Source of the DNA: Dioscorea cayenensis subsp. rotundata
Taxonomy: Eukaryota; Streptophyta; Magnoliopsida; Dioscoreales; Dioscoreaceae
Reading direction: 5' to 3'
Assembly (NCBI RefSeq): GCF_009730915.1
Contig: NC_052498.1
Span: forward strand, 1 to 64,000
Length of the DNA stretch: 64,000 nucleotides
In this document: piece by piece, positions 57,415 through 64,000 of the stretch
How positions within the stretch are numbered: the stretch's first letter is position 1
Layout of the letters: each line of letters begins with the position of its first letter
Notes under the pieces: generated by a model
What the model was told of the DNA's origin: nothing
The model's input: only the letters and a program-made list of their open reading frames with translations
The model's database searches: none
Program-made: the position numbers and the translations under genes

Positions 57415-60400
57415 TTAGGTCTGGTACTCAGGATTCAATGCAAGGGCCTCTCTGTAAATTAGCTCCTTCACATGCTCCTCAGTGAGTACGTGCTGTTCAA
57501 AGTCGAAGCTGAAGGGTGTCTTGCATACTGGCTCATCGCTTGTATCATGTAGGGATGCAAAGTAAGGATGTGCAAGAGCATCTTCTACTGCATATGCCAA
57601 AAAAAAAAAAAAAGAAACAACTTGCTTGTTAATCAAAGTAAGAAAGTGTGATCATTCTGCAAAGAAAGAACAACAAAAAAGAGTAACAACCATGGAAGTT
57701 ATTCATTCACATTAAACATGTGACATAATGGATGGCTTAAATGTCCTCACAATGACATCGGATTCATGCCCATACTAAGCTATCAGACTTTTTGTATTTT
57801 AAGAAGATTATGTATTTACAATGAAAACTCAAAGAAAGTTCAGCAGAATTTGTCAAACAAAAGTATTTTAAAATGCATTACATTCCAAGTCGAAGATAAA
57901 AAAGTTTCTTTAACCTCTTACATTGTATTACATCCTTGTTGTAGCCATCTATGTCTTGATTGCACATTTGTGAAGCATAAAAATATAGGTATCATCATTG
58001 ACTATTAATTTCTAGAGTCAAATACACCAGCATGCAGTAGCAATCACTTCATTAAGCTAAAAAACTGAAAACAGAAAATACGTTCAAGAGCCTCTTGCTT
58101 TTCTGGATTTAATAGATTTGAAGAAAAAATCAACCAGTAATCACTTGAAGGTACTTGCTTATCATTTTCTGTTACTAATCCACATGGGCCATGACACACA
58201 TTTTATATTCTACTGTGTAAAATACAACATGCCTTCCATCTCTATTGTAGCCTCATCCATAACCTCAACACATTCAAGAAGCAACAGTGAGAACAATAGC
58301 ACACGCATGACAAATCGTAAGGAATTATAGGTTTTATATACACCATAATCAAACAGACACATACATGGAAGAAGTACGATCTCAAATAAATCAATCTGTG
58401 AAGAAAAGGTGCCATTCTATTTCTTTTAAAAAACCTGCCAGTTGTTAGAGATACAGCGCAACAGATTAAGGATAACCATCTATACCAGACAAAATTGGCA
58501 TACAAGACGTAGGATATTAACAAAAGAATCCATAGTTTGATGTGATCATACAGTGTTCAACAATTTCTTGGCCAAAGATTAGACATGCACGTATTTGTCA
58601 ATCATTATTTGTAAACTGAGCAAAATCAAAACTATAATTCAGAGAACAAGTCTTTGAATTTAATAATATAAAACAATAAAAAAAAATCTGAGTAAAATTA
58701 TAGTGTCAAGAACTTTTCAATCAATAAATCTATTGTGATAACTTCAGAGAAGAAAACGGTGAGACGAAAACCATGAACAGAAATGTCTAACAATGACAAT
58801 GGGTCACAAAATTCTATCCACAAATTCAAGCCAACAGTCCTCAAACTAATTCTGTGGAATTGCACACTGAAACATGAAAAATATCAGAGGATGTTACAAT
58901 GAATCAGGTTCACTATCAGTTTATATCCGAACATAACCTAGTGTGATTTGGTTTCAAATATTCATTCTTACATTTGTAGCTCTGTTAGATGTTGAAAAGG
59001 GTATTGGGTATTTGGGTTATCAACCTTTATTTTCCAATAGCAGACCAGGTACCTAAATCTATGGATATCTGTGGTATATACTTTCAAGATTTAGGTCAGG
59101 AAATATATATCCTCAACAAATAATCAGACTGCCATTCTTTCTTTGCCAATATAACATACAGTACTCGTTCAGTTTCTATCATAATTAATCAATAATAAAA
59201 GAAAAAACTAAACTGTAGCACAGATACAAATGCATACCAGTTATTCTCTGGCTTGGATTGAATGTCAACATCTTCTCAACAAGGTCAATTGCTGTGCGAT
59301 GCATCTGCGGAAACTTTTCTGCGAATGACTGGCGGGCGTAACAAGGAAGTCCGAGGATAGATCTTCTATCAACTTCATCCAAGAAACCCAGATCATCCTC
59401 TTTTGGAGTGCCAATAAGCTGCATTGTGCAAAAGTATTAAATCAGCCATGGCCTAGCAAATATCAATAGGAATGCTTGAAGCCCATAATTGTAAACATTA
59501 TAATGATTCAAACATTCCTCATAGACCTGAGGGAATTTCCATACATAGACAAAGATCTTGTATTGCATTTGAAGATTATTTCTATTATATAAAAGAAAGG
59601 CTATCTCCAATGATGCATAGGTTAATTATTTGGAATGATGATTTGCATAACGCCAACATAAATCCTCAAGGGCATGTCCTCATAGCGTACTTACTGGCTT
59701 AAAAGGGGCACACATACCTAACGTATCAAAGATATATTGTTATTAATGTCCAGTGAAACGAGAAATCAATCTGGTTGCGATCCCGCAAAGCATGACAGCA
59801 TCAGGATAAGTCAATGTACAGAAATTTAATAAAGATATAGAATAAGGGGAAATTTCAGATTGTGGGAGTATCTAACAATTAACACATGAGAAGTGAAAAG
59901 AAATAAAAAATGATGAAAGGACAAAAAAAAGAAAAATAGTATCAATACTGTTGCTTTCATTTGCTTATCCATTCTTTCTTTTTTCTAATCAACCAAAACC
60001 AAGATAACAAATCCTTATTTTTTCCTTGACATATACTTAACCTCAATCAAAACAACACCTAGAGAAACATGCTCTATGAAGTTCAATAAGATCACATGCA
60101 TCTCCTAAAACAGAATAATAAAATTTGGTAGGCACAAAACAAGAGAAAAGCTTCACCTCCAACACCAAGCATATCTGGTGCACGATGTCTTTCCCTGGAA
60201 ATAAACATTTCCGTTCCACTAGCTCCATAAAGATGCATCCCACAGACCACACATCAATCGCAGCAGTATATCCAGAAGAATTCAGCAATAATTCTGGTGC
60301 TCGGTAGCTTTTTGTAGCAGGAATATACTCCCTAATAAAAGGAGAGGTAATGGGTTCAAACCCAAAATCAAAAATCTTCAAGTCACAACTTGCATTTAGG

Positions 60401-63400: not shown

Positions 63401-64000
63401 CAAAATATTAAAAATATTTTTATTAAATAACATTGATTGATATTTTAAAATGACCCAATACCTTCTTTTACAAAAATAAAAAACAGCTCAAAACTACATG
63501 AGTCTTCAAATCCTATACATTTAATGGGCTATAACCTAACAATATAAAAGATTTGACAATTGAGAATTGATCCCAAAATGTTTATAATATCAAAGTTAAA
63601 AAATAAGTCAATGCGGTGAAAAAAAAAAGAGATATGAAGAATTTAAGGCTTTTATTAAAGACAAAGTTCTAACATAAGCATGTAATTATTGTAGTAATTT
63701 TGAACATCAATGCAAGTTGAGATGGACAAATACAACGAAAATTGATAATGGGGAGTGTGTTTATCAAACAAAGATACATAAAACACACGTCGAGAGGTCC
63801 AAAACCACAATATAAAGAAAATAATGAAAAAACACAACACATAATGGGAGGTCCAAAATCAAAATATAAAAAAAATAATGATAAACCCCATATATGTAAC
63901 ACTCACAAAATGAAACCGACCTGAATGTGTTCCTCGGATAAAGGTTGGTCAGAGTGGATTATTTGATGCAGATTAGTCTCCATAAGCTCATAGGCAATGT
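57415..64000 (-). CDS. divergent MAP kinase, exons 3-6, 5' part beyond the window edge
   Basis: Exons on the minus strand are 64000-63921 (partial), 60471-60157, 59418-59238 and 57587-57415, at the canonical plant MAPK intron positions and phases. They start [20 protein letters not shown], then [73 protein letters not shown] and [20 protein letters not shown]. The end is [16 protein letters not shown]. Compared with canonical MAPKs, HRDLKPSN is HGDLQPSN, the TEY activation motif is REY, TRWYRAPE is TKSYRAPE, and the activation segment is one residue shorter. About five residues (family YFLYQ region) are missing where exon 3 meets exon 4. The catalytic Asp, the Asn and DFG remain, as does the common-docking motif [10 protein letters not shown]. 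It looks like a TEY-class relative that can no longer be activated by dual phosphorylation and may be a weak kinase or pseudokinase. The visible reading frame has no stop or frameshift. Confidence 0.9.
62652..62771 (+). repeat. tandem duplication inside MAP kinase intron 3
   Basis: Two adjacent copies of about 60 bases: CCATTTGATGCAGGCTATAC ... GAAAATATTACAGCAA, then CTATTTGATGCAAACTATAA ... GAAAATATTACAGTAA. Confidence 0.75.
63793..63895 (+). repeat. tandem duplication inside MAP kinase intron 3, near exon 3
   Basis: GAGGTCCAAAACCACAATAT is followed about 58 bases later by GAGGTCCAAAATCAAAATAT, and both are followed by AAAATAATGA. It is a two-copy direct repeat ending about 25 bases from the exon 3 donor. 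Confidence 0.75.

Follow-up and report, generated by a model that had tools for sequence, protein, structure and literature searches.

The window (the whole stretch of DNA analysed, 64,000 nucleotides) comprises positions 1-64000 of contig C28, which holds 68,823 bases of a 584 Mb genome assembled in 2249 contigs, and its right edge falls inside exon 3 of an MPK6-like gene (Table 1). The preliminary description had found exons 3-6 of this gene to read without a stop, with HGD, DLQPSN, REY and TKS ahead of YRAPE, and with the catalytic Asp and Asn, DFG and a 10-residue docking motif kept; all of this is borne out on the minus strand of C28. It had pointed to exons 1 and 2 and the VAIK lysine as the parts to recover, and we obtained both exons from farther along the same contig, with no stops and with the lysine present in a motif that reads VAIKR. 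The complete coding sequence runs for 1161 nt from ATG to TAA (386 aa and the stop) without an internal stop, and all five introns are present with GT-AG ends. Since these introns are retained, the gene is not an intronless retrocopy of the processed pseudogene type, and it shows none of the disabled frames or splice sites of a duplicated pseudogene, which are found in the related copies C148A and C148C. The Pfam Pkinase profile matches the protein with 185 bits from residue 67 and profile position 13, leaving the start of the domain unmatched.

When the protein was compared with the PDB by phmmer, MPK6 (5ci6) came first of 2497 matched sequences (E 2.1e-159); we take 5ci6 and 6dtl to be Arabidopsis MPK6. 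Outside the family described below, the best match to exon 4 is the canonical MPK6 of the same genome on contig C19 (74%), the next full-length match after the family copies. Exons 2, 3, 5 and 6 measure 130, 138, 181 and 173 nt in both genes, whereas exon 4 is one codon shorter in the C28 gene (330 versus 333 nt) and exon 1 measures 209 versus 245 nt. By sequence affinity, we place the C28 gene in the MPK6 clade.

Elsewhere in the window, two sets of related repeats lie in inverted orientation about 27.8 kb apart, each adjoined by an AT-rich array. They are probably a mobile element present twice, once downstream of the kinase gene. We consider it unlikely that C28 represents the other allele of a chromosome region present elsewhere in the assembly, as the PPR gene matches only 39 bases outside C28, on C2.

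Table 1. Coordinates of the features in the window, on the rest of C28 and on related contigs
Feature	Contig	Position	Strand	Details
Reverse-transcriptase-associated zf-RVT fragment, probably LINE	C28	23434-24771	+	
NifU-like domain gene	C28	26653-27258	+	
PPR gene	C28	27342-28496	-	
Inverted related repeats	C28	28845-28966 with 56799-56920		
Inverted related repeats	C28	29034-29109 with 56656-56731		
AT-rich arrays	C28	29.3-29.5 and 56.3-56.6 kb		
VIN3-like gene	C28	34170-36343	-	PHD_Oberon, fibronectin type III
Assembly gap	C28	50526-51525		1000 N right after the second copy's exon-1 donor; all N in the window
Second tandem copy, exon 1	C28	51534-51703	-	170 nt; Gly-rich loop RSDPYGVI; rest outside the window sequence
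Probable trace of MKK5-like 5' flank by second copy	C28	52292-52341	+	83% over 52 nt; L062 nt 1-52; E 3e-8
MPK6-like gene, exon 6	C28	57415-57587	-	173 nt; common-docking motif (10 residues); TAA stop
MPK6-like gene, exon 5	C28	59238-59418	-	181 nt
MPK6-like gene, exon 4	C28	60157-60486	-	330 nt; 17-residue stretch, then YRAPE
MPK6-like gene, exon 3	C28	63921-64000, on to contig position 64058	-	138 nt; AG/GT ends; hinge, alpha-D, alpha-E start
MPK6-like gene, exon 2	C28	65707-65836, beyond window	-	130 nt
MPK6-like gene, exon 1	C28	65915-66123, beyond window	-	209 nt
Copia-type gag	C28	66965-68823	+	
Exon-4 copies	C148	9693, 25315, 38802		Last one partial, two stops
Exon-4 copies	C28, C719, C1511			One on C28, one on C719, two on C1511 (C1511a, C1511b)
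Intronless MKK5-like MAPKK gene (L062)	C148	31646-32551	+	Head-to-head with C148B; 1035 bp between ATGs
Intronless MKK5-like MAPKK gene (L063)	C1511	22543-23298	-	Head-to-head with C1511a; 836 bp between ATGs
Family exons	C3	17956154-17987435	exon 3 (-), exons 5-6 (+)	About 30 kb apart

Altered and retained motifs across a tandem family

Using the canonical MPK6 on C19 as the reference for lesions, we found that the Gly-rich loop GKGAYGIV has become RSDPYSVT in the C28 protein and the catalytic loop HRDLKPSN has become HGDLQPSN, while TEY and TRW are replaced by REY and TKS. The altered Gly-rich loop is a major lesion beyond those named in the preliminary description. The activation loop, now 26 residues long, has two residues out and one in relative to C19, a count that depends on the alignment. 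On the other hand, the VAIK Lys, the alpha-C Glu, the HxD Asp, the Asn, DFG, APE and SLHDxSDEPVC are all retained. A strict pseudokinase is one that has lost the VAIK Lys, the HRD Asp or the DFG Asp; since all three are there in C28, we refer to its product as a degenerate MAPK. Judged from its sequence, the protein is probably catalytically impaired, and the retention of these three residues leads us to grade the predicted loss of catalysis as likely and no firmer.

A protein search with exon 4 returned at least seven family copies besides the canonical MPK6, on C28, C148, C719 and C1511, which is a lower bound because 150 of 667 candidates were scored. In addition, the window holds exon 1 of a second tandem copy, and C719 begins with exons 5-6 of another copy (C719-2). 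The only chromosome-size contig on which family exons were found is C3; no C3 exon 4 was among the exon-4 matches listed, and these pieces are possibly a rearranged or misassembled copy. In three copies (C28, C1511a and C148B) the frame is open from exon 1 to exon 6, and in C719-1 from exon 1 to exon 4, after which the contig ends. At least two copies are broken: in C148A, a TAG interrupts exon 1 and one nucleotide is missing from exon 3, and C148C carries stops. Exons 1-3 of C1511b were not found in the exon searches. Since exon 5 of the last copy on C148 is identical to that of C1511b, the two contigs probably overlap in one tandem array with copies in the same orientation. The existence of such a family makes a single pseudogene too simple an explanation for the window gene. 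At C1511:38810-39050 and C719:300-510, scattered one-base differences from otherwise near-identical copies look like unpolished long-read errors, so we take stops in these intervals as no biological evidence.

The same or like lesions are present in every copy that holds the relevant exons. No copy with exon 1 (0/6) conforms to GxGxxG, the sequence being RSDPYS or RSDPYG (RNDPYG in C148A); from G-K-G-A-Y-G-I-V the Tyr alone survives, with the last Gly in some copies, and Arg and Asp now stand in place of glycines. The catalytic-loop Lys is Gln in 6/6 family rows holding that site, and HRD reads HLD in C1511a, C148A, C148B and C719 and HGD in C1511b as in C28. At the TEY position we found REY in C28 and C1511b, REN in C1511a, C148B and C719, KEY in C148A and RDY in the DNA of C148C. 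We also found VAIR in C1511a and NFL instead of DFG in C1511b. The common-docking motif (11 residues) is present in all six family rows of the alignment that cover it, and in C719-2, outside that alignment, its second Asp is Asn. The recurrence of the lesions in other copies means that a local assembly error fails as their explanation, and we rule out assembly or base-calling error more generally since the same changes occur in copies that differ at other sites; the changes that the preliminary description had flagged are thus real.

At 68/354 sites, none of the available family copies (two or more per site) has the C19 MPK6 residue, and C19 and AtMPK6 agree at 57 of these 68. Such fixed replacements take up 9/25 sites from DFG to APE and 6/28 in the alpha-D/alpha-E stretch, compared to 1/11 in the common-docking motif.

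Frame retention and selection in the family

Over the codons of eight family rows, about 7.3 stops would be expected under neutrality and none is seen, an expectation somewhat inflated by the long branch of the second copy (0.26 per codon, from exon 1 alone). The count omits C148C, which has stops, and also misses the C148A TAG, whose N-terminal position the alignment does not cover; both circumstances favour the retention reading. Counting gaps whose length is not a multiple of 3, introns 3 and 4 have 14 in 2128 bases for C28/C1511a, 16 in 2168 for C28/C148A and 13 in 2200 for C148A/C1511a (11, 14 and 10, respectively, outside simple repeats), whereas the coding sequences of these three pairs, which are not independent of one another, show 0, 1 and 1 such gaps against roughly seven to nine expected per pair. 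Exon 1 measures 209, 170, 215, 185, 200 and 185 nt in six copies, and all differences are multiples of 3. Splice sites are intact in 57/57 cases from seven copies or part-copies, a count that leaves out C148C, C719-2 and the second copy in the window. Taken together, the analysed copies have fewer stops and frame-disrupting indels than would be expected from neutrality and from the rates in introns.

We fitted a codon model (GY94, F3x4) to 358 codons of the canonical MPK6 and of eight rows for the family, several of which are incomplete, with C148C and C719-2 left out, on a tree that gene conversion may disturb. With one value for the family, omega is 0.84 and indistinguishable from 1 (2dlnL 1.1). 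Estimated by exon, omega is 1.93, 1.13, 0.33, 0.96, 0.56 and 0.44 for exons 1-6, and equality over the six exons is rejected (omnibus 2dlnL 34.2, p 2e-6); the value for exon 1 is a point estimate from 43 codons, on a tree open to gene conversion. Exons 3 and 6 together have an omega of 0.40, below 1 (2dlnL 13.0), versus 1.02 elsewhere (2dlnL 17.1, 1 df), a grouping chosen after the per-exon pairwise values were seen, while the docking idea came before them from the initial finding. From ERK2 structures, we take exon 3 to hold the hinge and the alpha-D/alpha-E docking groove and exon 6 the common-docking motif. When the subset of C28, C1511a, C148B, C719 and the three C3 exons was analysed, omega was 0.68 (p 0.048 versus 1), with 0.41 for exons 3 and 6 versus 0.80 for the others (p 0.013). 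Along the branch that separates the family from MPK6, omega is 0.31 for exon 3 and 0.32 for exon 6, which does not set them apart from the other exons (0.23-0.57).

Exon 4 diverges by 6.7-8.8% among four copies compared to 5.0-6.6% for intron 4. We disregarded the apparent divergences of 19-26% between intron 3 of C719 and C148B and that of the other copies: the global alignment runs across dissimilar stretches, and BLAST puts the alignable pieces at 89-91%. Pairwise dS between the family and MPK6 is 0.33-0.40.

These results divide the two claims that the preliminary description had drawn from the window. Its proposal that activation was lost while docking was kept gains from exons 3 and 6 being the most constrained (0.33 and 0.44 versus 0.56-1.93), while the loss of catalysis itself is only likely. 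Its argument against simple neutral decay agrees with frames and splice sites kept beyond neutral expectation, but sits less well with plainly broken copies and an overall omega that is indistinguishable from 1.

MKK5-like genes beside the MPK6-like copies

Two members of the family, C148B and C1511a, each stand head-to-head with an intronless MKK5-like MAPKK gene. The one on C148 encodes 301 aa, with MAPKK 5 (7xbr) as its sole PDB match at 1e-45 or better, while the one on C1511 has a TAG after 251 codons. We dropped an assignment to the group D MKK7/9 type, as the PDB search ranks MAPKK 5 first. Both genes keep T-x5-T in the activation segment and a basic/hydrophobic docking-like motif at the N-terminus. 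Compared with each other, they show an omega of about 0.27-0.33 at a dS of 0.33-0.39, which at the sequence level suggests that they are under constraint. The adjacent MPK6-like copies diverge less than these neighbours (dS 0.087), and since the MKK5-like pair is the older by this measure, gene conversion among the MPK6-like copies is suggested.

On C28 itself, the match extends only to the 5' flank of the MKK gene, at 66511-66593. Close to where this match stops is a copia-type retrotransposon with a gag frame that begins at 66965, and the contig seems to break off within this element. The trace by the second copy in the window is shorter and weaker than the match at 66511-66593 and is probably the 5' flank of an MKK5-like gene that stood head-to-head with that copy. 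Not every copy is paired in this way: no MKK-like neighbour was found within 1.6-1.7 kb upstream of C719-1 and C148A.

Interpretation and comparison with known systems

We regard the anatomy of the gene and the existence of the family as solid. As for what the family does, our best reading, to which we give about an even chance on the sequences in hand, is that these are catalytically crippled MPK6 relatives kept for docking, as competitors or decoys of an MKK4/5-MPK6-type module, while other copies decay. On this reading, the family descends from one MPK6 duplicate in which the glycines of the Gly-rich loop, the Arg of HRD, the Lys of the catalytic loop and the Thr of TEY had gone before the copies diverged, while the docking surface stayed. 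Tandem duplication would then have multiplied it, in part together with a head-to-head MKK5-like MAPKK gene. From the open copies, the one in the window among them, we would most likely expect proteins that fold but have little kinase activity or none. Through their common-docking site and groove, these may bind both MKK4/5-type kinases and the substrates of MPK6, and in this way rival MPK6 or retain its partners, as surplus copies decay. The expression, folding, loss of activity, binding and competition of the open copies are what we infer.

The main competing account, which we consider unlikely yet weighty, sees in the cluster a set of tandemly duplicated MPK6 pseudogenes undergoing birth-and-death decay. 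Some frames would then have stayed open by chance or because of recent gene conversion, and none of the proteins would matter. An overall omega indistinguishable from 1, the broken C148A and C148C, the missing exons 1-3 of C1511b, an exon 4 that diverges as much as or more than its neighbouring intron and the location of nearly all pieces on small contigs are what such a cluster would leave behind. However, it does not readily accommodate the scarcity of stops and frame-disrupting gaps among the analysed copies, the intact state of all splice sites examined, the heterogeneity among exons with constraint on exons 3 and 6, or the lower omega obtained without the broken copies, and the frame has outlasted the longer time since the split from MPK6. 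We therefore rank docking-led retention ahead of a decaying cluster. A bolder version of docking-led retention, which is doubtful and which we hold slightly less probable than the decaying cluster, is that an MKK5-like MAPKK and a docking-only MPK6 relative form a co-duplicated pair, divergent from one short shared promoter and multiplied together, that would supply a built-in MKK4/5-MPK6 competitor with its MAPK half selected for binding alone.

Two further possibilities give the proteins another role. A still active but rewired kinase, phosphorylating substrates without TEY activation as atypical MAPKs do, would be consistent with the VAIK Lys, alpha-C Glu, HxD Asp, Asn and DFG of the C28 copy; we find this improbable given the Arg and Asp at the Gly-rich glycines, the Gln that replaces the catalytic-loop Lys in every row, the VAIR of C1511a and the NFL of C1511b, and an omega of about 1 in exons 2 and 4. 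By analogy, the copies might be guarded by an immune receptor and serve as bait for effectors with which pathogens attack MPK6, in the way that known pseudokinases such as ZED1 serve ZAR1; the ZED1 precedent has been published (PMC6634424). Tandem expansion, the high omega of exon 1 and a conserved interaction surface fit this pattern, but the exon 1 value carries the limits given above, and we consider such bait more improbable still than an active kinase.

If the open copies are expressed, docking-led retention would represent a natural split of docking from catalysis in a plant MAPK, with several copies as a ready mutant series, and the tuning of the MKK4/5-MPK6 module by catalytically dead MAPKs would be directly testable in a crop, probably yam. 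If they are unexpressed, the cluster would illustrate that apparent conservation of a docking surface can accompany decay, and caution would be called for in inferring function from open frames.

Among titles and the openings of abstracts, our literature search returned no paper on such an MPK6-like family or on the head-to-head pair. Plant MPK6, a group A MAPK and the best PDB match, resembles the C28 gene in the common-docking motif and, in the MPK6 of this genome on C19, in the lengths of exons 2, 3, 5 and 6, whereas the family is without the Gly-rich loop, the HRD Arg, the catalytic-loop Lys, the TEY Thr and TRW, and has activation-loop length changes and tandem copies. The atypical animal MAPKs ERK3/ERK4 and NLK have the MAPK fold without TEY dual phosphorylation, like the family, but unlike it they retain an intact Gly-rich loop and activity. 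ZED1-type proteins are tandem degenerate kinases kept for binding; they belong to another kinase family, that of the receptor-like cytoplasmic kinases. In plants, a passage of one survey ascribes domain-lacking MAPKs largely to fragmented genomes (PMC8064577). MAPKs with an altered TEY are known there as well, and the eight variants given in a passage of PMC4363184 do not include REY, REN or KEY. The family shares with these MAPKs the departure from TEY/TDY and differs from them in losing several catalytic elements together, in tandem.
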